Shown: positions 2,382 through 25,721 of the stretch, in pieces
Layout of the letters: every line of letters starts with the position of its first letter
Position numbering within the stretch: position 1 is the stretch's first letter
Program-made: the position numbers and the translations under genes
From: a virus
Length of the DNA stretch: 25,721 nt
Virus record (IMG/VR): IMGVR_UViG_3300017971_000711
Span: 1-25,721 of that record
Reading direction: 5' to 3' (one strand)
Notes under the pieces: model-generated
Told to the model about the DNA's origin: nothing
The model's database searches: none
Seen by the model: the letters and a program-made list of their open reading frames with translations, nothing else

Positions 2382-3295
2382 GAATTATCGGCGCGGGTTT
2401 AGCGGGTTTATTGGCCGCTCAATACTTCCCGCACGCCTCTATTATAGAGGCATCGCCGAAACCGGACACGCATAAGGCGCTGTTACGATTTCGGAGTGAT
2501 AAGATTGCGCGCTTTCTGGGCATCGATTTCTTACCCGTTACTGTAAGGAAAGGAATATGGCTTAATGGACGATTTATTGATCCTGATATTCGAGTGGCTA
2601 ACTGGTATGCGCAAAAAGTGATCGGAAGTTTGGCTGATCGGAGTATTTGGAATTTGGATCCTGTTACTCGATATATCGCGCCGGAATGGCTGATTGAAGA
2701 GCTTATCGCGCGGTGCGGTGATCGGATAACGTGGGGCCTAGAGGCGGGAAAGGAGATACTGGACTTAGGAGAGGACCTTATTAGCACCATCCCATTGAAA
2801 TTTTGGGCCACTGCTTTCGATTTAGGTAGCACTCCGCCATTCGCCTATCAGCCAATCGCAGTTCGGCGTTATCGCATTCCATCAGCTAACGTGTATCAGA
2901 CCGTTTACTTTCCCGCTCCCGATCAACTTTTATATCGGGCTAGTATCACTAAGGATATACTAATTTGCGAGTATATTGGGCGGGTCGATGATCCTGTATT
3001 TGACGATAGCGTTTTGGACGCTTTCGGTTTGGCGGGTAAATGGATAGAACCGATGGATAATACGGCGCGGGAATTTGGCAAAATCCGCGCTATCGATAAC
3101 GAGTGGCGCCGCAGTTTTATTTATTGGCTCACGAATAAGCATCACGTGTACAGCTTGGGCCGATACGGAACGTGGCGCAACATTTTGCTGGATGAGGTCT
3201 TTAGCGATTTGGAACAGATTCAACGATTGCTTAGGACCGGAAACAAATATGACCGCTTACTTAATGTAATAAACCCTTTTAATAAGGAGGCCTGA
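2378..3295 (+). CDS. FAD/NAD(P)-binding Rossmann flavoprotein, oxidoreductase or mutase-like
   Basis: The first residues, IIGAGLAGLLAAQ, contain the dinucleotide-binding GxGxxG loop (G5, G7, G10), with E24 at the end of the second strand placed to bind the adenosine ribose. This is the classical FAD-binding start of amine-oxidase, UDP-galactopyranose-mutase and protoporphyrinogen-oxidase relatives. Near the C-terminus, YSLGRYGTW followed by a long helix resembles the second FAD-contacting region of the UDP-galactopyranose mutase group. At 305 aa it is shorter than those enzymes (usually 370 or more), so the substrate domain is reduced. The substrate cannot be read from sequence. The GTG start overlaps the previous stop; AAGGAAGGCAGGG lies upstream. 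It sits between DNA-binding-type genes, which hints at a role in nucleotide, base or surface-sugar chemistry. Confidence 0.75.
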   Translation: MRIIGAGLAGLLAAQYFPHASIIEASPKPDTHKALLRFRSDKIARFLGIDFLPVTVRKGIWLNGRFIDPDIRVANWYAQKVIGSLADRSIWNLDPVTRYIAPEWLIEELIARCGDRITWGLEAGKEILDLGEDLISTIPLKFWATAFDLGSTPPFAYQPIAVRRYRIPSANVYQTVYFPAPDQLLYRASITKDILICEYIGRVDDPVFDDSVLDAFGLAGKWIEPMDNTAREFGKIRAIDNEWRRSFIYWLTNKHHVYSLGRYGTWRNILLDEVFSDLEQIQRLLRTGNKYDRLLNVINPFNKEA

Positions 3296-7313: not shown

Positions 7314-7597
7314 TGCCACTTGATGTACAAATGTTACAAGCTATGCCGCCGGGAACCAGATTTGCGACTGGCGTAGCAACAGACTGTAGCGAAGGTCTAT
7401 TTATGGCCAATACGGGGAAAGAATTGCGTTGGGTCGCTATGCGTGGCCAAGGAACGCACGACTGGGCAATATATTGCCATTTTGATGCTGCCACCATCGA
7501 TGAGATAGCTCGCACAGGGGATAAGGTTCAAATGGAACAACACATTAGGTTCTGCGTTCCCTGCGATGATGCAGCATTAAAATGTTATAGGAGATAG
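7313..7597 (+). CDS. Small conserved-looking hypothetical protein (94 aa)
   Basis: No named family recognised. The start at 7313 overlaps the Prim-Pol stop (TAATG) and follows AAAGGAG. The C-terminal half has a distinctive pattern: HDWAIYCHF, then a D/E-rich helix, GDKV..E.HIRFCVPCDD and a final CYRR. Cysteines at the C-terminus (CVPC, C) could bind a metal together with nearby His residues, but they do not form a standard zinc finger. No membrane segment or signal peptide. It is probably cytoplasmic and expressed with the helicase and the DUF5662-like gene that follows 4 nt later. Confidence 0.65.
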   Translation: MPLDVQMLQAMPPGTRFATGVATDCSEGLFMANTGKELRWVAMRGQGTHDWAIYCHFDAATIDEIARTGDKVQMEQHIRFCVPCDDAALKCYRR

Positions 7598-7601
7598 ATG
7601 T

Positions 7602-8072
7602 ATGCGAAAACACTGGCGATATTTGAAGTATTTGGCAAGGCATAAATGGTATGTCTTTATCGAATGTTGCAAGTTAGGAATACCCTTCCACGGCGTATTC
7701 CACGACTTATCGCAATTGTTGCCTGATGAATGGTTTGCTTATGCTGAGTTTTTTTATGGCGATTGGCTGGATGATGTTAGTCCTTATATCCAAAAACGAT
7801 TTAACAAGGCGTGGCTTAAGCACCAGCGAAGGAACAACCACCATTGGCAACATTGGGTTCTGCGTAGGGACAGCGGAGAGTCCATCCCGGTTGACATACC
7901 GAAGAATGTCATCCTCCATATGATAGCTGACTGGCGTGGAGCTGGTCGCGCGATGCAAGGTTATGATGATTCTAAAATGTATTATCACAATCGTAAACGC
8001 ATTATGATACTTACGGAAAAGACGCGTGCTGCCATCGAGTGGCGTCTCCGTTACAATGAAAGGGACCTGTAA
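7602..8072 (+). CDS. DUF5662-like protein, His/Asp-rich
   Basis: A 156-aa protein that follows the DUF5662 pattern as I remember it: HKWYVFIECCKLGIP, FHDLSQLLPDEWFAYAEFFYG (H34-D35 and P41-G53), LKHQRRNNHHWQHW (72-85), MIADWRGAGRAMQG (107-120) and YYHNRKRIMILTEKTR. The spaced H34-D35, H80/H81 and D110 could make an HD-like metal site, which would suggest phosphohydrolase activity on nucleotides; that is inference. The start follows AGGAG at 7589-7593. The gene overlaps the ThyX start (TAATG), placing it in the nucleotide-metabolism-like cluster. Function of the family is not established. Confidence 0.75.
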   Translation: MRKHWRYLKYLARHKWYVFIECCKLGIPFHGVFHDLSQLLPDEWFAYAEFFYGDWLDDVSPYIQKRFNKAWLKHQRRNNHHWQHWVLRRDSGESIPVDIPKNVILHMIADWRGAGRAMQGYDDSKMYYHNRKRIMILTEKTRAAIEWRLRYNERDL

Positions 8073-8785
8073 TGAAAGTAACACTACTTAACTATACGCA
8101 AGACGCCATCGACCTATTGCTGTTCACCAAAAGCACGCGGCTTGGCCTCACTCCGGGGCTGATGGATAAAATTAAGGCGATGGACGAAGAAGACAAGATG
8201 AAACAGCTAGTGTATATGGCCAATACGGTCCCCAGTAGCTGGGAGTTTGTCGATTACACCTTCTTGATCGAAGGGGTTAGCCGCGCCTTTACCCATCAGC
8301 TAGTGCGGACCCGCACGGGGTCTTATGCCCAGCAAGCCATGCGGGTCGTAGATATGAGCGACTTTGATTATGTTTATACGCAGCATAATCTTGAAAACGA
8401 TTTTGAGCGAACCGTGATTGATGTTTTACTTGGGCGTATACACGAAGTCTATCATGGCTTACTTCAAAATGACGTTCCCATCGAAGATGCACGGGGCATC
8501 CTCCCGACTAACATAGCGACTAACATCATAGCGAAGTTCAACCTGCGGGCCTTCGCTCAATTGATCGCTAGTCGCATCGGCGGTCGCACCCAAGGTGAAT
8601 ATCGAAGCGTTGCCATGGCGATGGCGGATGCCGTGCTCGAAGTTCATCCGTGGGCCGAAATGTTCATCTTCAAGAAGGATCGTGATTACTACGATGAAGC
8701 TGAAAAGTTCGCGGCTACGCTTTCGCCGAAAGACAAAGATCAGCTTCTCAAAATCATCCACCACATGAGGGGAGCTGGGTCATGA
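8072..8785 (+). CDS. thyX: Flavin-dependent thymidylate synthase (ThyX), divergent motif
   Basis: A 237-aa protein of ThyX type; the family makes dTMP from dUMP with methylene-tetrahydrofolate, NADPH and FAD. The region THQLVRTRTGSYAQQAMR (74-91) aligns with the signature RHRxxSxNxxSxR: R79, R81, S84 and R91 are kept, while His80 is Thr, Asn86 is Ala and the active-site Ser89 is Ala. The second conserved region, FNLRAFAQLIASRIGGRTQGEYR, matches the NLRxFxxxR...AQxEIR block. Published work on the Thermotoga enzyme showed that the Ser is not an essential nucleophile, so activity is possible. It would boost dTTP for phage replication, or act on a related pyrimidine. The start overlaps the previous stop and the end overlaps the following membrane protein (ATGA). 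Confidence 0.85.
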   Translation: MKVTLLNYTQDAIDLLLFTKSTRLGLTPGLMDKIKAMDEEDKMKQLVYMANTVPSSWEFVDYTFLIEGVSRAFTHQLVRTRTGSYAQQAMRVVDMSDFDYVYTQHNLENDFERTVIDVLLGRIHEVYHGLLQNDVPIEDARGILPTNIATNIIAKFNLRAFAQLIASRIGGRTQGEYRSVAMAMADAVLEVHPWAEMFIFKKDRDYYDEAEKFAATLSPKDKDQLLKIIHHMRGAGS

Positions 8786-9090
8786 ATAAGCGTGATTTAA
8801 TAGTCAATTTGTTAGGCTATTTTATGTTCTTTATCGTTGCCGTTGTATATCCTATCGGATTGTGGATAGGGGGACAAGATCACGCAACGATACGTTATGC
8901 TGAAGTGATAAATAAAGAATCTGTTAAAAGCAGAGTATTTTATATCACTTTGCAGGCGAAAGGCACAGCATGGGGCTTTACGCAAACGTGGACCGAAAAT
9001 GTGCCTTATCAATTTTATGATGCTATAATGATTGGTGATACCGTCGATGTCAAAAATCGTTGTACATTAACATTCGCTAATAAATATTGA
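8782..9090 (+). CDS. Small membrane protein with one N-terminal TM segment
   Basis: Unrecognised, 102 aa. Residues about 9-30 (NLLGYFMFFIVAVVYPIGLWIGG) are a hydrophobic membrane segment. The remaining 70 residues are polar and beta-rich (VFYITLQAKGTAWGFTQTW, VDVKNRCTLTF), likely a small domain outside the membrane. The N-terminus is basic (MNKRDL) and no cleavage site is obvious, which suggests an anchored protein with the C-terminal domain in the periplasm. GAGGGGAG precedes the ATG, and the start overlaps thyX. Its presence among nucleotide enzymes is odd; an early host-envelope function such as superinfection exclusion is possible but unproven. Confidence 0.65.
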   Translation: MNKRDLIVNLLGYFMFFIVAVVYPIGLWIGGQDHATIRYAEVINKESVKSRVFYITLQAKGTAWGFTQTWTENVPYQFYDAIMIGDTVDVKNRCTLTFANKY

Positions 9091-9103
9091 AGGAACGGAC
9101 TTT

Positions 9104-9595
9104 ATGAGTTACCAAATCTTTGATCTCGACAACTGCATTTCGGATGATAGCTGGCGCATTCCGCACATCCAGCACGAAGCTGACAACGATTTTATCAAAT
9201 TCCACGATTATCATTCGCTGTCGGCGTTCGACGTTCTCAAAAATGAGGAAGCCGTTCGCACCAAGAGCGACATCATTATATTGACCGCAAGGCCTGTGAT
9301 ATATCACGCGATAACTATGCATTGGCTGGAGCTGCACAATATAACGATCACCCACTTGCTGATGCGTAGCGTTCACGATCACCGATCCAGCGTAGTGGTG
9401 AAAAAGGAACTGCTAAACGTTTTGTTCAATATGGCTAACGTGCCCATTCGTGAAATCGAAGCGGCTCACGATGATGATCCTAAAGTGGTTCGACTATACC
9501 ACGACCTGGGACTCAACGCGGTGCATATGAAGATCCACGATGTTCCGTATAAACTGGAGGAAGACAGCAATGGCTCAAAAACTAACCCCGCCTGA
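9104..9595 (+). CDS. HAD-superfamily phosphatase
   Basis: A 163-aa protein with the HAD catalytic motifs in order: motif I FDLDNCISDD (nucleophile D7, acid/base D9), motif II ILTARP (T61), a Lys pair at 100-101 for motif III, and motif IV HDDDP (D123-D125). The arrangement, without a large cap, resembles the phosphatase domain of T4 polynucleotide kinase and small nucleotidases. Probable substrates are 5'-nucleotides or 3'-phosphate ends; the sequence does not decide. There is no kinase P-loop attached, so it is not a full Pnk. AAGGA precedes the ATG, and the end overlaps the next gene by 26 nt. Placement between thyX and a DUF1599-like gene supports a role in nucleotide turnover. Confidence 0.82.
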   Translation: MSYQIFDLDNCISDDSWRIPHIQHEADNDFIKFHDYHSLSAFDVLKNEEAVRTKSDIIILTARPVIYHAITMHWLELHNITITHLLMRSVHDHRSSVVVKKELLNVLFNMANVPIREIEAAHDDDPKVVRLYHDLGLNAVHMKIHDVPYKLEEDSNGSKTNPA

Positions 9596-9899
9596 AATAA
9601 TGGAGGAAATGAAGGCGTTGTTTTTGGAGCGGTCTAAAATATACGGCGCCAATTACCAGATGGTGGGGAATGTGTTAAAGGCTTTCTTCCCCAATGGAGT
9701 TAGGCTAAGGAGTGATCACGATTTCTTAGTGTGGCACCTATTCGAGCTGATGATCGTTAAGCTGACTCGCTTCGTACATAGCGGCCTATCCCATCACGAT
9801 AGTATCAGGGATTTGGCCGTATATGCGACGATGGTGGAAAGTGAACTCGATGGAGAAAGGATCGGTGATGTCGAAAATACTAGTGACAGGATCGGCTAA
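9570..9899 (+). CDS. DUF1599 (Nmad1) / DUF6378-like small helical protein
   Basis: 109 aa from the ATG at 9570, chosen because GGAGG (9556-9560) lies 9 nt before it; an upstream ATG at 9540 has no such site. The pattern is helical with RSKIYGANYQMVG (21-33), a FxxLMIVKLTRF helix (58-69) and HHDSIRDLAVYATMVE (75-90). These K-x-YG, K-x-x-R and DSIxDLxxY blocks resemble DUF1599, also called nucleotide modification associated domain 1, and the similar DUF6378. Members are common in phages; a link to modified bases was proposed from gene neighbourhoods, not biochemistry. It overlaps the HAD gene upstream and the SDR gene downstream (32 nt), so all three are probably co-translated. Confidence 0.65.
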   Translation: MAQKLTPPEIMEEMKALFLERSKIYGANYQMVGNVLKAFFPNGVRLRSDHDFLVWHLFELMIVKLTRFVHSGLSHHDSIRDLAVYATMVESELDGERIGDVENTSDRIG

Positions 9900-10539
9900 C
9901 GGCTTAGGCAGGGTGGTGTTAGCTGCACTTTATAAAGCTGGTCACGATGTTTATCATTATGATATCGAACACGGCCGTAATGTGCTTGAACCTGACCTTA
10001 CCGGCATCAGCGAACTGGATGTACTCATCAACAATGCCGGGGTCAACTATCTGAATTGGATCGGTCGCATCAGCGAAGCGAAATGGGATTGGGTCATGGA
10101 CACTAATGCTAAAGGCGCGTTCATGATGACGAAGGCGTGCTTACCGATGCTGAAAGAAAGCAAAGGCACGATCCTCAACATCATTAGCAATGCGGCATGG
10201 GATCCCATGACTTGCTCACTGGCCTATAACGCTTCTAAGGGCGCACTCGCTATTATGACCGAACAAATGGCGCGTGAGCTTAAGCGGCAATGGGGCATCG
10301 ATGTATTCGGGATCGCTCCTAATAAGTTGAAGGGCACGCCGATGTCTAACAATGTTGATCGAATGGTGTGTAAAGTTCGTGATTGGACGCCTGAGCACGC
10401 TTTTCGGTATCAGCAGCAAGCTCTCCTTACTGGCGAAGAAATCCCGTGTGAAATCTTGGCCGAGTTTATATCATATTTACTGGCCACAAAAGACAACCAT
10501 CGTTTTCTTAGTGGCTGTATTATACCTTACGGAGCGTGA
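9868..10539 (+). CDS. Short-chain dehydrogenase/reductase (SDR)
   Basis: 223 aa from the ATG at 9868, which has AGAAAGG upstream; in-frame starts further left have no ribosome binding site. The classical SDR features are complete: cofactor loop TGSANGLG (residues 7-14), NNAG (55-58), and the catalytic set N80, S107, Y120 and K124 in YNASK. It should be an active NAD(P)-dependent oxidoreductase. The length is slightly short for classical SDRs (about 250), and the segment after PNKLKGTPMS that closes over the substrate is divergent. The substrate is unknown. SDR genes are uncommon in a phage replication region, so a role in modifying a sugar, base or cofactor precursor is worth considering. The stop is 1 nt before the exonuclease gene. 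Confidence 0.88.
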   Translation: MSKILVTGSANGLGRVVLAALYKAGHDVYHYDIEHGRNVLEPDLTGISELDVLINNAGVNYLNWIGRISEAKWDWVMDTNAKGAFMMTKACLPMLKESKGTILNIISNAAWDPMTCSLAYNASKGALAIMTEQMARELKRQWGIDVFGIAPNKLKGTPMSNNVDRMVCKVRDWTPEHAFRYQQQALLTGEEIPCEILAEFISYLLATKDNHRFLSGCIIPYGA

Positions 10540-10540
10540 C

Positions 10541-11095
10541 ATGAACTTTCTTTTGATCGATGTAGAAACAACCGGGTTGCTGAAGGCGAAAAAGAGTGAG
10601 CTAGATGATCAACCTCATATCACCGAGTTCGGTGCAATATTGGCGACCGATAAAGGCGATATCATCTATGCCGCTGATCAGCTTATTCAACCGCCCATCC
10701 CGATACCGGAAGAAACGATCAAGATCAACGGGGTCACGGATGATCTGGTGAAAGGGATGCCGACATTTGAGGAATACTTTGACATCATCGATTGCATGTT
10801 TGAAGATGCTCATGTATTAGTCGCTCACAACGCGCCGTTCGATAAAGGGATGATCGATGTCGAATACAAACGGCTTTGTAAAATTGAAAAGTTGGATTAT
10901 CCCGAACATGTAGTATGCACGGTTCAAGAATATAAAGCTAAAATGGGTAAATGGCCTAAGCTCACGGAGCTTTACAAAAAGGTCATAGGAAAGGAGTTGC
11001 AACAGACCCATCGAGCTTTAGACGATTGCCGCGCCTTGCACGATATATTGAAGAAGGACAAGTTTTACGCTAAAATGAGAAAGGCTTTGAAATGA
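10541..11095 (+). CDS. DnaQ-like 3'-5' exonuclease (proofreading subunit type)
   Basis: 184 aa from the ATG at 10541; the open frame extends 189 nt further left inside the SDR gene, but the protein family starts at LLIDVETTG. The DEDDh exonuclease residues are all present: D7 and E9 in DVETTG, D101 in HNAPFDKGM, and H157/D162 in HRALDD, matching HxAxxD. It is a stand-alone domain about the length of the catalytic part of E. coli epsilon, without a clear C-terminal polymerase-binding tail. Together with a DnaE-like polymerase 320 nt downstream whose PHP site is lost, it is the likely proofreading exonuclease of the phage replisome. The stop overlaps the next start (ATGA). Confidence 0.9.
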   Translation: MNFLLIDVETTGLLKAKKSELDDQPHITEFGAILATDKGDIIYAADQLIQPPIPIPEETIKINGVTDDLVKGMPTFEEYFDIIDCMFEDAHVLVAHNAPFDKGMIDVEYKRLCKIEKLDYPEHVVCTVQEYKAKMGKWPKLTELYKKVIGKELQQTHRALDDCRALHDILKKDKFYAKMRKALK

Positions 11096-11421
11096 AAACG
11101 CTCGTAGTCACCCATCCGACAGTCGATATGGATATGAGCTGGAATCTGGACGATGTCCAGTATATTATCGACGGCTCTATCAAACTCGCTAATGTCGAGA
11201 CGCCTGTGCCGATCAGAGAAAAGGCAGCCGACCTGGCCCTGCAGCTGATCAATCTGGGCTTCATTGAAGTTTACGATCCGACTACAACCCATCCGAAATA
11301 CGTGAATATCAGTCACATTCGCGGCTGGTGGGATCATGTAATCAACATTCGCGGCTCGATGACCCCGTTCGATTGTTCCGAAGATATGCTGTCCATTAAG
11401 GGCAAGATCGAGACAGTATGA
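11092..11421 (+). CDS. Hypothetical protein between exonuclease and polymerase (109 aa)
   Basis: Unrecognised. It begins by overlapping the exonuclease stop and ends by overlapping the polymerase start (both ATGA), so it is bound into the replisome operon. Beta-strand-like start (TLVVTHPTV), an acidic helix (about 60-75, KAADLALQLINLGFIEVYD), and a Trp-rich segment HIRGWWDHVINIRGS. No metal or nucleotide motif is evident. Its place makes an accessory role, for example linking exonuclease and polymerase, an attractive guess, but the sequence does not show this. Confidence 0.65.
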   Translation: MKTLVVTHPTVDMDMSWNLDDVQYIIDGSIKLANVETPVPIREKAADLALQLINLGFIEVYDPTTTHPKYVNISHIRGWWDHVINIRGSMTPFDCSEDMLSIKGKIETV

Positions 11422-14186
11422 TCCAACTTCGACTAAAAACTGAGTACAGTTTCGGTCGTACCTTTGCGCCTATCGGTCGTATGATCGATAGGCTCAAAGG
11501 ACTTAATTGTACAGCCGCTGGCATCGTCGATGGTTCTAGTTGGGGCCACGTAGCGTGGTATAACGCGTGCCGAAAGGCCGGAATACGACCGCTTTTAGGG
11601 ATTGAATCGATTGTTAGCGACGATGATACAGCATCGTCTATGTGGTTTCTCGCTAAGAATAAGGCCGGATTAGTCGAATTATACCGGGCCATCAGTAAAA
11701 GTTACCATCAGAAAATTAAGCTCTCCCGTGGCGCCTTACCCCGGTTGCACCGTCTCGATGTGCGCAACATGAGCGATAACATTTTTAAGTTCGCTGGCGA
11801 TATCACTGATGGCCCATTCCTTAAGGACATTGAAGCGGTTCTCGATCTCAACCCATCTAGTCGCATTTTGAATGTCCTTAAGAGGCAGCTGGCTCGTAAG
11901 CACCATCTTAAGATGGTCGATACTTCCGACAACGCCTTTGTTCATAAAACCGATGTTGATGTATATGAGATGATGTCTAAGGCGGGGCTGAAGGTAACGC
12001 CTCAATATATCTTAGAGACGCTTGAATGTCAGGGCACGGCGCGTGCTATCGCTAAGGCGTGCGAAGAACTGGAGCTGCCGAAGGCTCCTAATCTTCACGC
12101 TGAAGGCGATTTAGAAAAGTTATGTCGGAAGGGCATCAAGTATCGTAAGATGAAGTGGACGAAGAAGTATGAGGAGCGGCTACAGTATGAGCTAGAACTA
12201 ATCCGCGCAAAGAAGTATGAGAGCTATTTCATTATTGTAGCGGATATGGTTCATTATGCTAAGAAACACATGCTGGTTGGGCCTAGTCGTGGATCGGCGG
12301 CTGGCTCTCTAGTTTGCTACACTACTCGTATCACCGAAATCGATCCCATACCGCCAGGGCTGTATTTCGAGCGGTTTATTGATCCCACCCGAGTCGATTT
12401 ACCGGATATTGATTTAGATTTTCCTGACAACAAGCGCCATATGGTGTTCGAGTATATGGCTAAGAAGTACGGCGAAGATAATGTTGCGCACATCGGCACC
12501 ATTAGCCGCTTTAAGCCACGCTCAGCGCTCATCCAAGTTTGTAAGGCTCTTAATATCCCGCCACAGGCCACCGCACCCGTTAAGGTTGCCATGATTGAAC
12601 GATCATCGGCTGATGCGCGCGCTAGTAATTGTTTGGAAGATACGCTGAATGAAACATCGGTCGGTAAGCAATTTCTCAAGCAGTATCCCCAAGCCGTCAC
12701 CGCTACCTTATTAGAAGGGCACGCCTCTCACACAGGCGTACACGCAGCGGGGTTACTCGTTTGCGATAACGCCATTAATGATTATTGCGTGGTAGACGAT
12801 AAAGGCGTTGCGCATGTCGAGAAGAAAGCCGCTGCTGAATTAGGCTTATTGAAGATCGACGTGCTGGGATTGCGCACATTGGGGATATTGGAAGATAGCG
12901 GAGTTAAGGTTGATTGGTATGGATTGAAGTTCAATGATAAAAAGACATTTAATGTTTTCAATTCTGGCAATCTTTGCGGCATCTTCCAGTTCGACGGTCA
13001 GGCGATGCGGTCAATAGCATCGTTGATCGACGTTCGCACCTTAACGGAAGTCGATGCTATTACAGCTCTTGCTAGACCGGGCCCATTTAGAGGCGGGGTG
13101 ACTAAGCAGTATATTGAGCGCAAGAATGGCACCCCATATAAGCCGATCCACCCGAAGGTGGAGGCTCAGATGAAGGAGACATTTGGGCTACCTATTTATC
13201 AGGAGCAGACGCTGGCTATTGTACACAATATCGGAAAATTCAACTGGACCGAAACAGCCGATATTCGTACCGCTATGTCTAAGAGCCTGGGTGAAGAGTT
13301 CTTTGATAAATACACCAATCGCTTTATCAAAGGAGCCTTATCGCAAGGGGTTGATGAAGAAGGCGCGCGTACAACCTGGGAGCTTATCAACCATATGGGC
13401 GCATGGCAGATGAATAAGGCGCATACCTATAGTTACGCCGTTATCAGCTACTGGACTGCGTATCTTAAGGCGCATTATCCGCTTGAATTTGCTGCGGCTA
13501 ATCTTCGCAATGCGAAGGATAATGATCACGCTATCTTATTGCTACGAGAGCTTAAGCGGGAGGGCATCGATTATGTCCCCTTTGATTTAGAATGCAGCAA
13601 ACTCGATTGGTCAGTCATCGATGGTAAATTGTATGGCGGGTTCTTGGCGCTTAGAGGAATTGGAGAGAGTAAAGGCGCGAAGTTGATTGATGCGCGGGAT
13701 AAGGGTGCCCTGACTAAGAAGCAACTAGAACAACTAGCTAAGGCCCAGAATCCCTTTGATAACATCTTCCCGTTCCATACCTACTATCAAGACTACTACG
13801 ACAATCCAGAGGCGCACGGCATATCTTCGGGCAAGGTTTGGGAAGTGGCCGATATCAATATGGAAAACGGGGTGCCGCACGGCCATACCCGTGTCTTCTT
13901 AGCAGAACTAATACACAAGAACGCTAGAAATGCTAACGAAGATGTGAATATCAAGAAACGCAACGGCGTAGTGGCCACAGGCCCTTTAGAGTACGTCGAT
14001 GTACGATTGCGAGACGATCACGCGGTGATCGGCGGTCGTGTTGACAGGTATCGTTTTGAGAAGTTGGGCAGAAAGCTATTAGAGGAAGTGGACATTGGAG
14101 CTCATCTGTTAATCCGCGCAAAGTTTTTCAATGGGATCCCATGGGCCTTTATAAGTAAGTGGAAGGAGATAACGCCTAATGATTAA
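11418..14186 (+). CDS. dnaE: C-family DNA polymerase (DNA polymerase III alpha / DnaE-like)
   Basis: A 922-aa replicative polymerase, shorter than bacterial DnaE (about 1,160). The palm motifs are complete: GPSRGSAAGSL, PDIDLDFPD (catalytic D332 and D334) and LLKIDVLGLRTL (third Asp D481), followed by the fingers region QFDGQAMR and ARPGPFRGG. The N-terminal PHP domain is reduced: the first strand reads LRLKTEYSF where metal-binding HxH is usual, and IVDGSS replaces ITDHGN, so PHP exonuclease activity is improbable. The HhH region (FLALRGIGESKGAKLI) is kept, while C-terminal clamp- and tau-binding parts are shortened. It should copy the phage genome with the upstream DnaQ-like subunit. The ribosome binding site is weak and the start overlaps the previous stop, which suggests translational coupling. 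Confidence 0.95.
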   Translation: MIQLRLKTEYSFGRTFAPIGRMIDRLKGLNCTAAGIVDGSSWGHVAWYNACRKAGIRPLLGIESIVSDDDTASSMWFLAKNKAGLVELYRAISKSYHQKIKLSRGALPRLHRLDVRNMSDNIFKFAGDITDGPFLKDIEAVLDLNPSSRILNVLKRQLARKHHLKMVDTSDNAFVHKTDVDVYEMMSKAGLKVTPQYILETLECQGTARAIAKACEELELPKAPNLHAEGDLEKLCRKGIKYRKMKWTKKYEERLQYELELIRAKKYESYFIIVADMVHYAKKHMLVGPSRGSAAGSLVCYTTRITEIDPIPPGLYFERFIDPTRVDLPDIDLDFPDNKRHMVFEYMAKKYGEDNVAHIGTISRFKPRSALIQVCKALNIPPQATAPVKVAMIERSSADARASNCLEDTLNETSVGKQFLKQYPQAVTATLLEGHASHTGVHAAGLLVCDNAINDYCVVDDKGVAHVEKKAAAELGLLKIDVLGLRTLGILEDSGVKVDWYGLKFNDKKTFNVFNSGNLCGIFQFDGQAMRSIASLIDVRTLTEVDAITALARPGPFRGGVTKQYIERKNGTPYKPIHPKVEAQMKETFGLPIYQEQTLAIVHNIGKFNWTETADIRTAMSKSLGEEFFDKYTNRFIKGALSQGVDEEGARTTWELINHMGAWQMNKAHTYSYAVISYWTAYLKAHYPLEFAAANLRNAKDNDHAILLLRELKREGIDYVPFDLECSKLDWSVIDGKLYGGFLALRGIGESKGAKLIDARDKGALTKKQLEQLAKAQNPFDNIFPFHTYYQDYYDNPEAHGISSGKVWEVADINMENGVPHGHTRVFLAELIHKNARNANEDVNIKKRNGVVATGPLEYVDVRLRDDHAVIGGRVDRYRFEKLGRKLLEEVDIGAHLLIRAKFFNGIPWAFISKWKEITPND

Positions 14187-14625
14187 AGTACAACGAGAAA
14201 AGAGAGCCTACCAGACTTTGCGAAAGAACATGCCGATGCCTTACGATAGGATGAATCGAGTAGAGAATATTGTTATCAAAGGGATGCCCGATATCAACTT
14301 TTGTAGCGAAGGGGTTGAATGCTGGATCGAGATGAAGGCTATCATTGAACCAGTTCGAGAAACGACCAGGGCCTTCACCGGGCATAGTCATAATCTTACT
14401 CTAGCGCAGCGCAATTGGATGCTGTCGCAAAAGAATGCGAAGGGCAATTGTTACATTCTCATCGAAACCGATAAGCGGTGGTTGCTGATAGACGGTTTGT
14501 ATGCTGATGAAATTAACACAGCGACTATAAACCGACTTATTGAGCTATCGGCGTGGTACCGAGAAAAACCTGTCTATAAAGAACATTGGCTTGCGCTTAG
14601 AGCCGTGCTGCAAGGAGCCGCGTGA
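14179..14625 (+). CDS. PD-(D/E)XK nuclease, VRR-NUC/Holliday-resolvase-like
   Basis: A 148-aa protein with the nuclease core: E29, GMPDIN with D38, and WIEMKA with E51-x-K53, the PD...ExK signature. A Q-rich helix (LTLAQRNWMLSQ) follows at about 74-85, as in VRR-NUC and related single-domain endonucleases. Likely metal-dependent cleavage of branched DNA or flaps during replication or recombination; substrate inferred. AAGGAG lies before the ATG, and the gene overlaps the polymerase by 8 nt. It is followed at once by a DUF4031 gene and an SNF2 helicase, a set that would suit fork repair or joint resolution. Confidence 0.82.
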   Translation: MIKVQREKRAYQTLRKNMPMPYDRMNRVENIVIKGMPDINFCSEGVECWIEMKAIIEPVRETTRAFTGHSHNLTLAQRNWMLSQKNAKGNCYILIETDKRWLLIDGLYADEINTATINRLIELSAWYREKPVYKEHWLALRAVLQGAA

Positions 14626-14891
14626 TGGCTAAGGCTCCTGTGATATACGTTGATGATGCGAAGAATAGATTTCACAATATGGTGATGAGCCATCTATTCG
14701 TTATTCCGCATCATTGTAAGAGCGCGCTGGATCGCTTTGCTACGCGGCTGGGCTTAAGCCTATTAGATAAGCACAATCAGCACTACGATGTGTCTCAATC
14801 TAAACGCAAGCTCGCAATTCGACTAGGGGCAATCCCCATCGGCCAAAAACAAGGCGCTAAACTAAGATTGGAGGATTACAAAAATGACTAA
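14625..14891 (+). CDS. DUF4031-like protein
   Basis: 88 aa from ATG 14625; a GTG at 14622 is an alternative, and AGGAG at 14613-14617 suits either. The pattern VIYVDDAKNRFHNMVMSHLFV, followed by ALDRFATRLGLSLLD and HYDVSQSKRKLAIRLGA, matches the DUF4031 family as I know it. The family has no proven activity; conserved Asp pairs (D10-D11), His and the HYD motif hint at a metal-dependent or nucleotide-binding role. The start overlaps the nuclease stop (TGATG) and the end overlaps the following gene by 8 nt. Confidence 0.75.
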   Translation: MAKAPVIYVDDAKNRFHNMVMSHLFVIPHHCKSALDRFATRLGLSLLDKHNQHYDVSQSKRKLAIRLGAIPIGQKQGAKLRLEDYKND

Positions 14892-15246
14892 TATTGGGCG
14901 ATACATAGCGCCATTCAGCGTAGAAAAAACGCTAACCGGGATGCGCGTTCGAGATGCGCATGGCGCAGATATTATTTGGGTGCCGTATGATGGTAGCTGC
15001 AATTGGACTATTGAGGAGTTAGAAGAAGTGGCTGCCCGTCTGAATTCGCAGAACAAGAACGCCGAGATCAAGGAGTACAGATTGGCATTGGAGTTTTACG
15101 CCAACCCTGATATATACGTAGAAGATGAAACCCCTTCGCTACCCGTGAACGACATACCTATAGGAAGCATTGAGGCTGATGAACCTGAAATCTTAGAGGA
15201 TGGGGGTAGACGCGCCCAAGCCGCGCTGAGGGAAGGAAAGAAATGA
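14884..15246 (+). CDS. Hypothetical phage protein with acidic C-terminal half
   Basis: A 120-aa protein without a recognised family. The N-terminal half is a small alpha/beta region with RVRDAHGADIIWVPY and a helix (TIEELEEVAARLN). The C-terminal half carries EYRLALEFYANPDIY and ends with ILEDGGRRAQAALREGKK, a pattern (DGGxxAxxAL) I have seen at the end of small phage proteins of unknown function. GGAGG precedes the ATG at about 9 nt. It overlaps its neighbours on both sides (8 nt with DUF4031, ATGA with the helicase), so it is expressed with the repair-like set. Confidence 0.65.
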   Translation: MTNIGRYIAPFSVEKTLTGMRVRDAHGADIIWVPYDGSCNWTIEELEEVAARLNSQNKNAEIKEYRLALEFYANPDIYVEDETPSLPVNDIPIGSIEADEPEILEDGGRRAQAALREGKK

Positions 15247-16736
15247 AATTCAAAACTAAACCATATGCCCATCAACTAGATTGCCTTAAGAAATTCTGGA
15301 AATATGAAGCATATGCTTTGTTGGCGGAAATGGGCACGGGCAAAACCTGGATAATGATCAACAACGCAGCACGGTTATGGGAAGAAGATATATGTGACGC
15401 TATGCTCGTATTCGCACCCAATGGCGTGCAGACAAACTGGACGCGGCTCGAAATCCCCGCGCATATGCCTGAATCCGTTAAGTACCATTCAGCTGCATGG
15501 ATCGCCGGGGCCAATAAGAAAGAGTTGGCTGATATTGAGAGATTATATACAGTTAGCTCTGAGATGTTACGTATTTTCTCGATGAATTGGGAGGCGCTGC
15601 AAAATAAGCGCGGTATGGAGGCGGCTTTGCGCTTTGCCGAGAGCGCGGAGAATTTGATGATTGTTTGCGATGAGAGCGATGCGATCAAAAATCCTAGCGC
15701 CAAGCGTACCCGCAATCTAATGTATCTTAGATCATTTAGCACTTATCGTAGGATTATGTGCGGGACGCCTATCAACAACGCACCCTTCGACCTATTTAGC
15801 CAATTCCGATTTCTCCATTCCAAGATCATCGGTACGACGTCATTTTGTACCTTTAAGGCGCGGTACGCAAAGATGATCCACAAAGGGCCATTATACGATT
15901 ACATCAAAGCGCGGTCAAAGCGCGGTGGCAATATTCAAGTTATAGCGAAAGATTCTCGTGGATTGCCGCAATATTGTAATCTGAATGATTTATCGCGCCG
16001 CATCGCGCCGTATTCTTTCCGCATTCTTAAGGATGAGTGTCTTGATCTACCGGATAAGATATACAAAACGGTTCTATTCACACTTACTCCGAAACAACGC
16101 GCTGTATATACGAAAGCGGAAAAGGAGTGCCGCTTGGTATTTGAGGAAACGGAAATGCCATTTGATAGATTGGTGGCAATGGTAAAACTTTCCCAGATTA
16201 CATCAGGCTATTTCGTCCATCCGGCAGCAGATAAACCCGTTAGAATAGACGGAGAAAACCCGAAATTAAAGCTGTTAATCGAGCGCGTACAGTCGATAAT
16301 TAGGGCTGGAAATAAGATTATCGTGTGGGCGCGTTACCGGATAGAGATAGAAGATATTGCCAGCGCCTTTAAAGAGGCGGGCATCAACTTTGTCGAATAT
16401 CACGGTGGTACGACTAAGAAGAAACGTATAGAGGCGATTGATAGCATTAACGACAAAGATAGTCCTGTAAGCGTATTTATTGGCCAACAGCAAGCTGGCG
16501 GTCGTGGCTTGACGCTCATCGGCGCCAGTTACGTTATCTATTACAGCAATTCCTATTCCTACCGGGACAGGGCCCAATCTGAAGATCGCACGCACCGTAT
16601 TGGGCAACGCCGTAATGTAACATATCTTAATTTTGCTGCGCAAGATACCGTCGATGAGCAAGTCATATTCGCCTTAGCGCATAAAAAGGATGTAGCAGAA
16701 ATAATCGTCGATAAAGGATTGGAGTTGTTTCAATGA
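15243..16736 (+). CDS. SNF2-family DNA helicase/translocase
   Basis: A 497-aa superfamily 2 ATPase with both RecA-like halves: Q-motif region YAHQ, Walker A AEMGTGKT (29-35), Walker B VCDESD (141-146, where most relatives have DEAH), motif III CGTPINN, and in the second half HGGTTKKKR, GGRGLTL and motif VI QSEDRTHRIGQ (445-455, arginine finger R452). The HRIGQ box is typical of SNF2/SMARCAL1-like proteins that move on dsDNA and remodel forks or displace proteins. It is the last gene of the left arm, with a hairpin 3 nt after its stop. No nuclease or restriction-type domains are attached, so a replication or recombination role is more likely than defence. Confidence 0.93.
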   Translation: MKFKTKPYAHQLDCLKKFWKYEAYALLAEMGTGKTWIMINNAARLWEEDICDAMLVFAPNGVQTNWTRLEIPAHMPESVKYHSAAWIAGANKKELADIERLYTVSSEMLRIFSMNWEALQNKRGMEAALRFAESAENLMIVCDESDAIKNPSAKRTRNLMYLRSFSTYRRIMCGTPINNAPFDLFSQFRFLHSKIIGTTSFCTFKARYAKMIHKGPLYDYIKARSKRGGNIQVIAKDSRGLPQYCNLNDLSRRIAPYSFRILKDECLDLPDKIYKTVLFTLTPKQRAVYTKAEKECRLVFEETEMPFDRLVAMVKLSQITSGYFVHPAADKPVRIDGENPKLKLLIERVQSIIRAGNKIIVWARYRIEIEDIASAFKEAGINFVEYHGGTTKKKRIEAIDSINDKDSPVSVFIGQQQAGGRGLTLIGASYVIYYSNSYSYRDRAQSEDRTHRIGQRRNVTYLNFAAQDTVDEQVIFALAHKKDVAEIIVDKGLELFQ

Positions 16737-18430: not shown

Positions 18431-20203
18431 TTACACGGTTGAAATCTTCATGCCGCCGATTTGAGTAATATAAAAATGAAAAGTCCCTGACGTAGAACCA
18501 ACAGGCGTAGCAATCAACTGATTGCTAGCATTTACAGTAAAGGTGAATGACGGCCATGATGCAGCCGCGCCCGTTTTTAATCCCTCAGATGCGATCAGCA
18601 CTTGATTATATACTGTCGTTTTAGTAATCAGGTAAACATATGATGCAAGATTCGATCCCGATGACGAGTGGTAAGAGTCAAGCGTTGCGATGATATGGAT
18701 CAATCCTGAATACATATTGGTGTGACCTGCCAGCGACGATAATGTACATATTGCCGTGGCAGCCGTTACCGACTTGCTGAATCGCAAGATGTTGGTTTCA
18801 TTCCCCACAATGCCAACACCGGATATAGTATCAAGCAAAATGCAGTCACGTAGCGTCAATTTGTGATCCAGCTCCACGCCTGTTCCAACTACGCTAAACG
18901 ATCCATCGTTGCTGAATTCCTGAAAGCGCTCAACGATGACATCAATATTTCCCGTATCAACTTGATTACTGTATATCGATCCATAAGAGCCGCCATCATC
19001 ATCCGCACCGTGAGAGAAGCAATCGATCAGCGAGCATTGCGTGCCCTTTATCGTACTAGCAGCATCGAGCGCAGCAGATGATTTAACGTAGAAAGATGCG
19101 CGACCAGCATCCTCCGCGCCACAACCGATAAGCGCCACGCCAGAAGTATTATTGATCTCATAAGCGTAATAACCAGCGCTATCGCAAGCGCAGCCTATAA
19201 AGGACGAATAAGCGACATCATCAATTCTGAATCCGGTTCCGGTGGCAGCTGTTGAAGCGCAATAGCAGTTACTGATCACCAACGATGTATTATAGCCGCC
19301 GCTGAAATCAAAGCCTCTAGCTCCATTAGGAGTTTTAGCCCTACATTGATCCATAGTGATTAAAAATGATTGATCGACTAAAAAGCAAGCCGTTGTCGCA
19401 TATTGGCAAAATACTCGCTGAAGCCTGATCTCTGAACCGTTCTCGATGTGGAGGCAATTGGTGACCTGATCATTGCCATCGATACCCATATCTTCAATCA
19501 CGCAATACGTAGAGTGCTGCATATATAAAGCATCTGTTCCGGTAAAACCTGATGCACAATCCAGCGTGGTATTTTGCATCCCATCACCGCGTAAAGTGAT
19601 AGAGGCTAGATGCTCAGTGGCTTCCGTATTGCGCATATTAAGCGTGGCGCTGATTACATACGTACCCATCGGGAAGTATAGCACGCCGCCCGTTTTTGTG
19701 AGATGCGCCGTATCTATAGCGTCGATAGCGGCTTGAATCGCAGTTGTATCGTCTGTTACGCCGTCTCCTACAGCGCCGAAATCCTTAACGCTGATGATAT
19801 CGCGGCCTTTCGCTTGCAAGGTACGGGATACCGCGCCTGTTTCAGACCGGATAAAGGAGATGGCGCTAGAGGCTAGGGTGCCTGTTACATCGCTAATTGG
19901 AATCGCATTATCCGTATTGAGCGCGGTATATACGACAGCACCAGCTGAATCCTTAATCGTTATCGAATAGTCATCAGCATCAGCGAATATCTTTGCTGGC
20001 GTACCGTTGTTGGCGATATACCCAGCTGAGGTGCGGATCGGAACCGATGCTGTTACGGCTTTCCCTGAATCCCAATATACCGTTATGGGATTAGTTTCAG
20101 CATCCGAACCAGCGGTGCCAATGTATATATATCCATTGTCTAATGGCGTGCCATCCGTATCGACTATAAGTGGATACGGAACAACTACTTCATTAACTGA
20201 CAT
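18431..20203 (-). CDS. Tailspike with P22-like head-binding domain and pectate-lyase-type beta-helix
   Basis: A 590-aa receptor-binding protein. Residues 1-105 (VVPYPLIVDTDGTPLDNGYIYIG... PVRTSAG-like ...AKIFADADDYSITIKDSAGAVVY) follow the P22 tailspike head-binding domain. Residues 139-190 (VKDFGAVGDGVTDDTTAIQAAI ... GGVLYFPMGTYV) are the start of a Pectate_lyase_3-type beta-helix that runs to about 470. The last 120 residues are a beta-rich, Ser/Thr/Tyr-rich domain, perhaps for trimer formation. It probably binds and may cleave a host surface polysaccharide; catalytic residues cannot be assigned by eye. AAAGGAGAG precedes the ATG, and it follows the ejection proteins directly, as in P22-like late operons. 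Confidence 0.92.
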   Translation of the reverse strand: MSVNEVVVPYPLIVDTDGTPLDNGYIYIGTAGSDAETNPITVYWDSGKAVTASVPIRTSAGYIANNGTPAKIFADADDYSITIKDSAGAVVYTALNTDNAIPISDVTGTLASSAISFIRSETGAVSRTLQAKGRDIISVKDFGAVGDGVTDDTTAIQAAIDAIDTAHLTKTGGVLYFPMGTYVISATLNMRNTEATEHLASITLRGDGMQNTTLDCASGFTGTDALYMQHSTYCVIEDMGIDGNDQVTNCLHIENGSEIRLQRVFCQYATTACFLVDQSFLITMDQCRAKTPNGARGFDFSGGYNTSLVISNCYCASTAATGTGFRIDDVAYSSFIGCACDSAGYYAYEINNTSGVALIGCGAEDAGRASFYVKSSAALDAASTIKGTQCSLIDCFSHGADDDGGSYGSIYSNQVDTGNIDVIVERFQEFSNDGSFSVVGTGVELDHKLTLRDCILLDTISGVGIVGNETNILRFSKSVTAATAICTLSSLAGHTNMYSGLIHIIATLDSYHSSSGSNLASYVYLITKTTVYNQVLIASEGLKTGAAASWPSFTFTVNASNQLIATPVGSTSGTFHFYITQIGGMKISTV

Positions 20204-22536: not shown

Positions 22537-23747
22537 TGTTTTGGCCCTTTATATCCGCTATAGCCCATATATCCTTCATCCGCTTCCTCATCATCGCTTA
22601 CTAAATCACGAATCAGCTGCATATCGCCTTCAACCGCGTTCTCATTAAGGCGATCAAGATTAACCCTTCTGGTACTTTCGGGTCCTAGCACGCGTTCTTC
22701 ATCTAAGCCATAATCTTTGATGGATTTTTGAAGCCGCTGCTCGGAGTGAATCACATCCTTTTGAGATTCTGACATATATTTCGTAGCAAGCCTGACGAAG
22801 GCGGCGCGCTGTTCAGGCAACAGCCTATCGCCTTTACTCCATCTATTATATAGCCGCTCCACCTGCTTGTATAATGCGGCCGTATTCTGCGCAACGGCGA
22901 ACTCCGATTCCCGAACGACAGAATTGGGATCGAGCACCTTCATAAAGTTGAATATAAGAGCAACATCGCCGGCAGCAGATTCATCCTTAGCAGAATGCAG
23001 TAGCGTGCGATATTTAGAAGATGCCTCCCGATATGGGCTGGTCATTTTCTCAAACTCGCCGCGTAGAGCTTTTTCATGATCAAAGATTTTATCAGGATCG
23101 CCGCCAAAATCTTTTATGCGCTTTATCTCAGAAAGGATTTTATCGGTTTTTGCCCAAAGTTCAGCAGCTTCCGCCTGCATCTTATCGCGCGTATCTTCGT
23201 GTAAATCTTCTTGTCGTAGCTCTTCACCATACTTACTAACATTAGCAAGCACCTCATCGCCTCCCGGCATAAAAGCTACCATAGTACCGATAGCACGGCG
23301 CGCCGCTATAGGATCGATGCCGATTAGTTCAGCAGCATCTCTGTATGCTTTAGCTTTGATTTTATCTCCGCTATTTTCAGCTGCCTTAGCCATATCCAAG
23401 AACCTGGTTCTGGCAAGTTCAGGATTGGTATCAATTGCGGCTAACGATTGCCCTGCTTGCTGTAGCGATATTTTCTGTTCTTCTTCAGTTAGTTTGGCAA
23501 AGTTCTTCCGTACTGATTCCCCTACTTCAGGGTTGACGAGACTTATTGCATTAGCAGCAGTCATCCAATCTTCAGGCGAAGAATCAGCAGAAAGATTCGA
23601 TACAGCATCCATAGCAGCTTGCTGCCTTTTACGAGCCTCTTGCGCAGCTTTCATTTGCTGAATAGCGGGAATGGTTCCTAAACCCGCCATGATCTTTTCA
23701 CGCGGATTTGGAACATTAAGCATATAATTTTTAGGCTCAGGCATCAT
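22533..23747 (-). CDS. DNA ejection protein, P22 gp20-like position
   Basis: A 404-aa, mostly helical protein. The stretch DVALIFNFMKVLDPNSVVRESEFAVAQ (around 265-291) is a pattern I know from phage injection or internal virion proteins. The N-terminal 60 residues are Ala/Gln-rich and helical; the C-terminus ends with an acidic segment (LVSDDEEADEGY) and YMGYSGYKGPK. No enzyme motif. It lies between the gp7-like and the large ejection gene, with 4-nt overlaps on both sides, so three subunits are probably made in fixed ratio. Confidence 0.8.
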   Translation of the reverse strand: MMPEPKNYMLNVPNPREKIMAGLGTIPAIQQMKAAQEARKRQQAAMDAVSNLSADSSPEDWMTAANAISLVNPEVGESVRKNFAKLTEEEQKISLQQAGQSLAAIDTNPELARTRFLDMAKAAENSGDKIKAKAYRDAAELIGIDPIAARRAIGTMVAFMPGGDEVLANVSKYGEELRQEDLHEDTRDKMQAEAAELWAKTDKILSEIKRIKDFGGDPDKIFDHEKALRGEFEKMTSPYREASSKYRTLLHSAKDESAAGDVALIFNFMKVLDPNSVVRESEFAVAQNTAALYKQVERLYNRWSKGDRLLPEQRAAFVRLATKYMSESQKDVIHSEQRLQKSIKDYGLDEERVLGPESTRRVNLDRLNENAVEGDMQLIRDLVSDDEEADEGYMGYSGYKGPKQ

Positions 23748-24376
23748 AAACCTCCAGCGATAATACCGATTGTTTCATTTACATCACCCCACATATCCGC
23801 AGCATATTGACCGCGCGCTAAAGCGCCACCAGCTTGTGCAGCGCCAGCCTCTCCTATTAGATTGGAGATTTGCACCCCGGCGCCTGTGGCCGCTGCTCCG
23901 GTTTGCGCAGCTGACGCTTGACCCAGATTCGATAAACCGCCAAGGCGTTGATATTGCTGATCGATTAAGCTATTCAACAAAGTCGGTCGAAATCGCGCTA
24001 AGGCTTCTTGTACATTACCGCCTCTTAAGCCGCCAGTAGCAGATGCATTAGCAAGGATGCCTTCTTCGCCTTGCTTCATTAGCTCTTCATACATCGGCGA
24101 AGTCAAAATGCGATCCAAGGCCAGCTCTTGATTTTCAGCACCCTCTAAGCCAAGCAAATTCATTTGCTCACCAGTCGCTCGTCCACCAGCGGTCACCCAG
24201 GGCTTTAATAGCTCTTGAACCTTATCAAATTGACGCCTGGTTTCTTTAATACCAGCCATCGACGCGGCATATTGATATCCGGCGGCTTCACTAGACGCTG
24301 CTGCTGCATCTTTGCTCGCCATATAGCCAGTTACAATTGTGCCTCCTGCCACAAGACCAGTTACGGGATCAGGCAT
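23744..24376 (-). CDS. DNA ejection protein, P22 gp7-like
   Basis: A 210-aa, Ala/Gly-rich protein. The N-terminus has a Gly-rich hydrophobic stretch (GLVAGGTIVTGYMAS), followed by LKPWVTAGGRATGEQ, LTSPMYEELMKQGEEGILANAS, ATGGLRGGNVQEALARF and LNSLIDQQYQRLGGL. This series, especially the ATGGLRGGN motif, is typical of the P22 gp7 group of DNA transfer proteins found in many podoviruses. In the virion it is ejected ahead of the genome. Its start overlaps the stop of the DDxxD protein by 8 nt. Confidence 0.85.
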   Translation of the reverse strand: MPDPVTGLVAGGTIVTGYMASKDAAAASSEAAGYQYAASMAGIKETRRQFDKVQELLKPWVTAGGRATGEQMNLLGLEGAENQELALDRILTSPMYEELMKQGEEGILANASATGGLRGGNVQEALARFRPTLLNSLIDQQYQRLGGLSNLGQASAAQTGAAATGAGVQISNLIGEAGAAQAGGALARGQYAADMWGDVNETIGIIAGGL

Positions 24377-24812
24377 GTTTTATCTCCTGTATATAATCGC
24401 TGTATTTTTCACCATATAGCTTCATCACTAAATGGGCGTTATTTCTCGCAACTTCTTCTCCGTGGCAAAGCAGCACTACGAATAATACCAGATCATAATA
24501 TCCAGCGCGCCAAATGAATGATGATTCGCTTGGTTCTTGCTTTTCCTCTACCGCATTAGCCGCGTGCCATTTCATTATTGTAGTTATCAACACAGGAGTT
24601 AGCACGGCGGCTTTCTCCATATAGAATGGATTCGTTGGCATTGCCACAAACGTATTCCAAACTAATTTATTCACATCTTTAGGCTCCAAACTACCATCAT
24701 CATATGCATCATCAAGCATTTGCGCCATTTCAAATACTGTAACAAGCCAATTTACAGCATCTTTCGGTAAGGCCAACGGACCTTCTAAATTTTCTCTAAG
24801 GTCTTCAATCAT
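24369..24812 (-). CDS. All-helical phage protein with a DDxxD motif
   Basis: A 147-aa helical protein whose function I do not know. Notable blocks: WLVTVFEMAQMLDDAYDDGSL (about 22-42), MPTNPFYMEKAAVLTPVL (58-75), AANAVEE, then a hydrophobic helix YYDLVLFVVLLCHGEEVA (105-122). The DDAYD sequence recalls the DDxxD magnesium-diphosphate motif of isoprenyl and terpene synthases, but a clear second (NSE/DTE) motif is absent and the protein is half the usual length. As part of a late operon just before the ejection proteins it may be a morphogenesis factor. Overlaps both neighbours slightly. Confidence 0.7.
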   Translation of the reverse strand: MIEDLRENLEGPLALPKDAVNWLVTVFEMAQMLDDAYDDGSLEPKDVNKLVWNTFVAMPTNPFYMEKAAVLTPVLITTIMKWHAANAVEEKQEPSESSFIWRAGYYDLVLFVVLLCHGEEVARNNAHLVMKLYGEKYSDYIQEIKHA

Positions 24813-25147
24813 GATATCACCCTACCGCTGGCGCTACAAACCAGTGCATTTGCTACGCTCGCATATGTGCTAATGAAACCGCTTGCCTCTATTACTTGAT
24901 TAATCATCTCAGGGCAAAGATACGTTTCTCCTGCTACGATTTGACGTTGCGAAATAACCCGATTATCAGTATCAGCAGCATCTCCGCTAGCAACAAGATT
25001 ACAGCTAAACGATACCGTGCCAGAAGAAACATTTGTAATGGTAAAGGCATCGATGATCACTTTTGTCCCGCCGCTTGCCGTATATTGAGCCGCATTAGTG
25101 GCTTCGAGTAACTTACGTGGGATTATGTTTAATATCGTAACAGTCAT
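24809..25147 (-). CDS. Small phage protein, probably virion-associated (112 aa)
   Basis: A beta-rich 112-aa protein. The pattern AAQYTASGGTKVIIDAFTITNVSSGTVSFSCNLV, then ETYLCPEMINQVIEASGFISTYASVANALVCSASG, is one I associate with small proteins next to head or tail genes in podo- and siphoviruses, annotated as hypothetical or structural. The fold is likely a small beta sandwich. It follows the repeat protein and overlaps its stop (ATGA). Position in the late operon supports a virion role such as decoration, but there is no direct proof. Confidence 0.7.
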   Translation of the reverse strand: MTVTILNIIPRKLLEATNAAQYTASGGTKVIIDAFTITNVSSGTVSFSCNLVASGDAADTDNRVISQRQIVAGETYLCPEMINQVIEASGFISTYASVANALVCSASGRVIS

Positions 25148-25721
25148 CGTATTTTCTCCACATCGATAATCACCGATGGCGTAGCGGGAGCGACCCCTGC
25201 TGCAGTTTGCGCATCTAAGATAATGCTTAAGTCATTCACAGCGAACATCAACTCGTAATAATCACCGACCTGTAGCTCTATTACATGAGTGAACGTCAGC
25301 GAAGTTAAATCAGAAACTACTCGTGTCGTATTAGAATTAGCGACATTAACTCCATTAACTCTAGCCCAAACATTTATAATCGATCCAGCAGTTAATAATA
25401 CAGTAGGATCGACTATAACCGTACCAGCCGCGATAGCAGTAGGCGCAATTGTTACCGATCCTTTTAATACAGTAGGATCGACTATAACCGTACCAGCCGC
25501 GATAGGCGTGGGGGATATAGTTATGTCTCCCCCTTCGATAACAGTAGGATCGACTATAGTAGTACCCGCGCTAATCGGGTCGGGTACGATTGTTAGAGAG
25601 CCGCGTACAGCGGTAGGATCAACTATAGTAGTACCCGCGCTAATCGGGTCGGGACTAATAACGATACTGCCCTTAACGATTGTAGGATCGACTATAGCAG
25701 CACCCGCGCTAATAGGACCGG
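25144..25721 (-). CDS. Tandem-repeat virion-type protein, 5' part outside the window
   Basis: The reverse strand is open from the right edge to a TGA at 25144-25146, 191 residues, and overlaps the next gene's ATG. The start is beyond 25721. The first part holds five copies of a 23-24-residue repeat (…GSVTI-P-PI-AGT-IVDPTV…; the core SAGTTIVDPT or AAGTVIVDPT is kept). The last about 85 residues form a non-repeated domain (WARVNGVNVANSN... ELQVGDYYELMFAVND...). The repeat alternates strand-like (TIVDPT, GSVTI) and Gly/Pro turns, fitting a beta-solenoid or stacked-strand fibre. No family recognised. Place at the head of visible late genes suggests a head fibre, decoration or tail-associated protein. 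Confidence 0.75.
   Translation of the reverse strand, partial: GPISAGAAIVDPTIVKGSIVISPDPISAGTTIVDPTAVRGSLTIVPDPISAGTTIVDPTVIEGGDITISPTPIAAGTVIVDPTVLKGSVTIAPTAIAAGTVIVDPTVLLTAGSIINVWARVNGVNVANSNTTRVVSDLTSLTFTHVIELQVGDYYELMFAVNDLSIILDAQTAAGVAPATPSVIIDVEKIR
25396..25721 (-). repeat. Coding tandem repeat, 69-72 bp units
   Basis: The core TAGGATC(G/A)ACTATA (+ strand) starts at 25404, 25473, 25545, 25614 and 25683: spacings 69, 72, 69, 69, all multiples of 3. Units fall in two subtypes. 41 bp are identical at 25396-25436 and 25465-25505, and 32 bp are identical at 25553-25584 and 25622-25653, indicating recent pairwise duplication. The array continues past the window edge. Confidence 0.92.

Follow-up and report, generated by a model that had tools for sequence, protein, structure and literature searches.

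A tandem 23-residue repeat of phage tail proteins joined to half of a C1q-like domain in a P22-like podophage contig

The window, by which we mean the whole stretch of 25,721 bp analysed here (a linear fragment that makes up an entire IMG/VR record), ends in a minus-strand gene for a fibre-like protein built of tandem 23-24-residue repeats. As judged by profile searches, this repeat is widespread in phage tail proteins and unnamed in the libraries searched, and the window protein is a further member of the family. While the repeat is of a known kind, it is less expected that it is joined here to one half of a split C1q-like domain. We consider it moderately probable that the gene of a C1q-like knob took up a fibre cassette with a repeat shaft, which split the domain. 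If true, the case would illustrate how, in nature, a gene insertion can distribute one virion domain over two proteins and how phages can gain receptor-binding parts while retaining the old one.

The array and the domain that follows it consist of the following elements:

25144..25719, minus strand: partial coding sequence of 191 aa, the C-terminal part of a fibre-like protein with a repeat array and half of a C1q-like domain
25648..25716, minus strand: repeat unit 1, 69 bp
25579..25647, minus strand: repeat unit 2, 69 bp
25507..25578, minus strand: repeat unit 3, 72 bp, with one extra codon
25438..25506, minus strand: repeat unit 4, 69 bp
25396..25437, minus strand: first 14 residues of unit 5, joined directly to the C-terminal domain
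25396..25505, minus strand: span of a 41-bp exact repeat, with copies at 25465-25505 and 25396-25436
25553..25653, minus strand: span of a 32-bp exact repeat, with copies at 25622-25653 and 25553-25584
25150..25377, minus strand: C-terminal half of a jelly roll of the C1q/TNF type, covering positions 66-146 of the 147 in the profile (E 2e-17 within the ORF set)

The reading frame runs from 25719 to a natural stop at 25144, and the N-terminus of the protein lies outside the contig. The whole units read, in order, PISAGAAIVDPTIVKGSIVISPD, PISAGTTIVDPTAVRGSLTIVPD, PISAGTTIVDPTVIEGGDITISPT and PIAAGTVIVDPTVLKGSVTIAPT (69, 69, 72 and 69 bp), and the fifth one, AIAAGTVIVDPTVL, switches to the sequence of a different domain after its 14 residues. 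Tandem Repeats Finder also reported a 69-bp period for the array. Both exact repeats are in frame and spaced at 69 bp, and their lengths of 41 and 32 bp compare with a longest exact repeat of 12 bp by chance in 500 dinucleotide shuffles. The closest nucleotide copies within the window are neighbours (units 4 and 5, units 2 and 3), the pattern expected from local duplication or conversion, and we infer that units were gained or homogenised by recombination. The plus-strand ORF lying over the array (25289-25720) is a by-product of the repeat and has neither profile nor neighbour support. These observations bear out the original prediction of tandem repeats open at the contig edge, of a single 72-bp unit among 69-bp units, of 41-bp and 32-bp identical stretches between adjacent units and of recent exchange or duplication among them. 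Its further proposals, a beta-rich repeat and a late virion protein, agree with the AlphaFold2 model and with the apparent placement of the gene in a P22-like virion gene block, respectively.

The same prediction had held that no known family contains this repeat, and here it was mistaken. Residues 3-109 of the window protein matched positions 17-122 of the 133 in phrog_8501, a family of mycobacteriophage minor tail proteins whose members include gp24 of Mycobacterium phage Brujita (E 1.7e-6), and 11 of the 14 aligned repeat segments matched phrog_8501 as well. The IMG/VR and GTDB contigs were then scanned with a DNA pattern for three units, each hydrophobic-x-x-P-T-[VI], spaced at 69 bp. Beside unrelated matches, the scan returned about 15 further proteins of viral or bacterial contigs with long arrays of the 23-residue repeat. 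The profile built from the window units alone found 14 of the pattern-hit ORFs (E 1.6e-6 to 5.9e-37), several of which are pieces of the same protein or nearly identical versions of it. To offset the selection by the pattern, conservation was counted only at the positions that the pattern leaves free. Among 123 units, Gly stood at +5 in 80%, Pro at +11 in 72% and Ile or Val at -9 in 69%, and the window units agree with these positions. I, P, T and G are present in all four whole window units and Pro +11 in three of them, while in the 72-bp unit this proline lies one position off. The window thereby shows the period of 22-24 residues, the I/V at -9, the P-T-[VI] core, the G at +5 and the P at +11 of the phrog_8501 type, and the repeat is encoded among virion or tail genes.

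Brujita gp24 and the rest of phrog_8501 share with the window protein the unit I-x-S-x-x-x-V-x-x-P-T-V-x-x-G-x-V-x-I-x-P, repeated head to tail in a tail protein with a period of 22-23 residues. Unlike the window protein, they are short stand-alone proteins of 132 aa from siphophages of Gram-positive hosts and have no C1q-like domain. By profile, the arrays of uncultivated viruses (L134, L139, L140, L146, L154, L168, L177 and others) contain the same repeat as the window, in some cases tens of units of it and often after an N-terminal globular part. They differ from the window protein in that no C1q-like C-terminus was seen in them, in that they belong to other phage types and in that they carry no annotation. 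The 23-residue repeat seems to be a building element in general use among phage tail proteins.

No family for the repeat was found in Pfam or NCBIfam, and no sequence with it in the PDB, which makes it an obvious candidate for naming and for structural study. No paper on the family surfaced in a literature search that mostly did not reach subscription journals. The exact pattern GT[x]IVDPTV gave no match, and IMG/VR held no close relatives of the whole window protein or of a 777-aa protein. Many matches to the three-unit pattern were unrelated, being frames with stops or low-complexity Pro/Val runs; arrays of the type 'LVNAPTIPNSVTNM' look like BspA-type leucine-rich repeats and are also unrelated. 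The Pfam match to Drf_FH1 (E 0.0022) was compositional and far under the family cut-off.

A second type of 23-residue tandem repeat, 'LTGDDVISGIPxVxxPTIxQTFxL', occurs on viral and archaeal-MAG contigs (L135, L137, L163 and L120). Its homologues L135 and L137 are exactly two units (46 aa) apart, and this sole clean difference in unit number belongs to the sister type, not to the window's family, for which the originally proposed setting of fibre length by repeat number is hypothetical. In L140 and L160, another tandem repeat ('DGTNTPWCGxxxDKLYLQSGQF') lies N-terminal to the 23-residue array.

AlphaFold2 predicted mostly two short strands per unit, with a block-mean pLDDT mostly of 68-84 over the array, while the C-terminal half-domain in the same model stayed below 50. 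Structure searches with the repeat model gave no significant fold match in the PDB or viral libraries; matches to beta-helix and ice-binding proteins fell below significance and were set aside as evidence. The array can therefore be called only a predicted beta repeat, with no narrower fold name. Tandem short beta repeats serve as the shaft in the adenovirus fibre (triple beta-spiral) and in T4 gp5 (triple-stranded beta-helix). The window array resembles these shafts in being made of tandem short beta repeats, and its own role as a shaft is putative. Their repeats have about 15 or 8 residues versus 23-24 in the window, whose units thus do not follow the ~15-residue repeat of the triple beta-spiral, and no structural match to them was significant. 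The array most likely forms the fibre shaft of a P22-like podophage.

By its gene content, the window genome is that of a P22-like podophage. The genes that locate the fibre gene are these:

24809..25147, minus strand: 112-aa conserved neighbour, overlapping the fibre stop by 4 bp; the anchor for locating the slot in relatives
24369..24812, minus strand: 147-aa protein (phrog_21390)
23744..24376, minus strand: P22 gp7-like DNA ejection protein (PF25688, phrog_598)
18431..20203, minus strand: tailspike with a pectate-lyase-like beta helix, a separate receptor-binding protein

Downstream of the fibre gene, the same strand encodes the 112-aa protein, the 147-aa protein, the gp7-like protein, two further proteins that stand where P22-type ejection proteins are expected, the tailspike and an endolysin. 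The closest annotated relative, MW202867, has the order terminase, P22-like portal, scaffold, P22 coat, gp4, gp10, a 390-aa protein annotated 'cerebellin-1 domain', a homologue of the 112-aa protein (55% identical to that of the window) and ejection proteins. The gp10 gene of the window phage lies outside the contig; this order, together with the 112-aa homologue, indicates that the window protein occupies the slot after gp10. The slot protein directly follows gp10 both in MW202867 and in a second contig, L096, considered below.

A C1q-like protein was encoded just upstream of the 112-aa gene in most of the best 80 IMG/VR loci, and residues 115-190 of the window protein matched the C-terminal domain of these slot proteins. 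The slot proteins of MW202867 and the IMG/VR relatives thus share with the window protein a homologous C-terminal half and the position before the 112-aa gene. They differ from it in having an intact single-gene jelly roll and short N-terminal helices and in having no beta repeats. Related phages (L013-L092) differ greatly, in mosaic fashion, in what lies between gp10 and the 112-aa gene: C1q-like proteins, proteins with a C-terminus resembling an intramolecular chaperone and short coiled proteins alternate there.

The AlphaFold2 model of an intact homologue shows short N-terminal helices and a jelly roll, most of which has a pLDDT above 90. Foldseek matched it to the TNF/C1q/BclA jelly roll (E 3.5e-8), followed by lower-ranked C1q, TNF and BclA matches. 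The chain of the window protein does not hold a complete jelly roll, as it covers only positions 66-146 of the 147 in the profile, and the split point falls in the intact-homologue model into the loop between the neighbouring strands 145-157 and 162-171. From reading the sequence, the boundary between array and half-domain has no in-frame ATG, GTG or TTG, and the half-domain would therefore be made as a fusion to the array. One MAFFT alignment (A3) was set aside, as it placed the C1q halves over the repeats.

A complementary half was found on L096 (IMGVR_UViG_3300017971_001268, 8,513 bp), the sole further contig with several copies of A-G-[TA]-x-I-V-D-P-T at 69-bp spacing. It encodes the portal, scaffold, P22 coat, gp4, gp10, a 129-aa protein, a 151-aa protein and, in an open frame of 456 aa cut off by the contig edge, a protein whose last part consists of three units of the window's repeat type. 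By alignment, the 129-aa gene carries the N-terminal motif of the slot family and then the first C1q-like half (profile positions 2-57), after which it stops, its last residues being FTIQLNA. Among the loci searched, the window (66-146) and L096 (2-57) were the only ones with partial C1q domains, and the two are complementary: they score 65 and 49 bits apart and about 116 bits when joined.

The fibre N-terminus of L096 has a distant homologue in another podophage (33% identity, E 6e-25), encoded immediately upstream of a carboxypeptidase/holin pair. No homologues of the 151-aa protein or of the N-terminal part of the fibre were found among the other loci. The match of the 151-aa protein to Podophage GP4 fiber I gp80 (PF23140) reached 18.5 bits (E 0.0027), below the cut-off of 27.

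We infer that the window and L096 show one arrangement, and it is plausible that they come from the same phage. The tetranucleotide usage of L096 was closest to that of the window's virion region among 59 P22-like loci (0.827); since 5% of between-locus pairs reach at least 0.819, this value makes the identity of the two phages plausible only. Alternatively, the two contigs may differ in arrangement, with an ordinary fusion of an array to a partial C1q domain in the window and an independent truncation in L096. This would fit the sources, which are IMG/VR fragments only, the arrays, which have no exact word longer than 20 bp in common, and the compositional similarity, which is suggestive only. 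We nevertheless regard it as unlikely: both contigs share a rare repeat, in which the L096 segment and the window array are 67% identical, as well as the virion gene order, their half-domains complement each other and each contig breaks off within the array.

The fusion might also stem from a chimeric join made where the contig ends, since the array is located at this edge and repeats are frequent breakpoints of contigs. Such an assembly artefact is highly improbable: the truncated N-half gene lies ~1.9 kb inside L096, and the C-half of the window is in frame with an array whose units differ and are not simple collapsed copies.

With one arrangement assumed for both contigs, the insert would consist of the 151-aa gene and the fibre gene and would have landed in the C1q-like gene right after gp10. 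The left half of the knob would persist as the 129-aa gene, and the right half would form the C-terminus of the fibre, with the last repeat unit joined to it in frame. Judged from L096, the full fibre gene would encode an N-terminal part of ~385 aa, then the repeats and then the C-terminal C1q/TNF-like half-knob, and the array would be the shaft between the N-terminal part and the half-knob. As no single contig contains the whole gene, the N-terminus and the N-half of the window phage are deduced from L096.

The slot raises the question of whether the repeat protein is the tail needle itself, an equivalent of P22 gp26 with beta repeats in place of the coiled-coil shaft. In P22, the needle gene 26 lies at this very place after gp10. 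Needles of the Sf6 type, moreover, end in a TNF-like knob (PMC3741392). We consider this improbable: in L096, gp10 is followed directly by the 129-aa protein, which carries the conserved N-terminal slot-family motif, while the N-terminus of the repeat protein is different and fibre-like, with its distant homologue upstream of the carboxypeptidase/holin pair. The Sf6/HS1-type gp26 needle combines a coiled-coil shaft with an intact knob, whereas the window protein combines beta repeats with half a knob, and its array is predicted to be beta throughout, with no trimeric coiled-coil shaft as in the P22 gp26 or Sf6 needle. The likeness lies in the slot and in the knob fold of the intact relatives, and homology with gp26 is only putative.

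Under the insertion reading, the C-terminal half may still be a mere relic, translated by in-frame chance, with the N-terminal part and the array alone sufficing for the fibre to work. On its own, half a jelly roll is not expected to fold, and the median identity of the window C-half to intact copies is 0.35, compared with 0.47 among the intact copies themselves; this greater divergence leaves room for slow decay. We hold the relic to be possible, if somewhat unlikely: the C-half is open and in frame up to its natural stop, and among 18 positions strongly conserved in the intact relatives it retains 14 (including W, N, G, D, Y, P and P), while the N-half in L096 retains 17 of 19. The conservation of each half suggests that both still fold, and the simplest way for them to do so would be together. 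In that case, one half would sit at the base spike and the other at the far end of the repeat-built fibre, on separate polypeptides; it is speculative that the half-domains fold together and hold the fibre tip to the spike. The complete version of this idea, in which the reassembled halves clip the fibre to the base spike and the number of units tunes the length of the loop or fibre, is rather unlikely in our estimate.

Three further observations concern the plus strand of the window. The 305-aa protein encoded at 2378-3295 has an N-terminus that looks nucleotide-binding (MRIIGAGLAGLLAA) and matches phrog_4828, a family of unknown function (E 2e-76). At 9823-10539, a FabG-like short-chain reductase (phrog_3142, moron/auxiliary metabolism, E 1.3e-32) is encoded in a frame that overlaps the end of the preceding ORF and the start of the next one. 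The region 5154-16736 carries a replication set that is large for a small podophage: primase/helicase, a ThyX-like thymidylate synthase, a separate DnaQ-like exonuclease, a DNA polymerase of 922 aa (phrog_405, E 1e-214) and an SNF2-type helicase.
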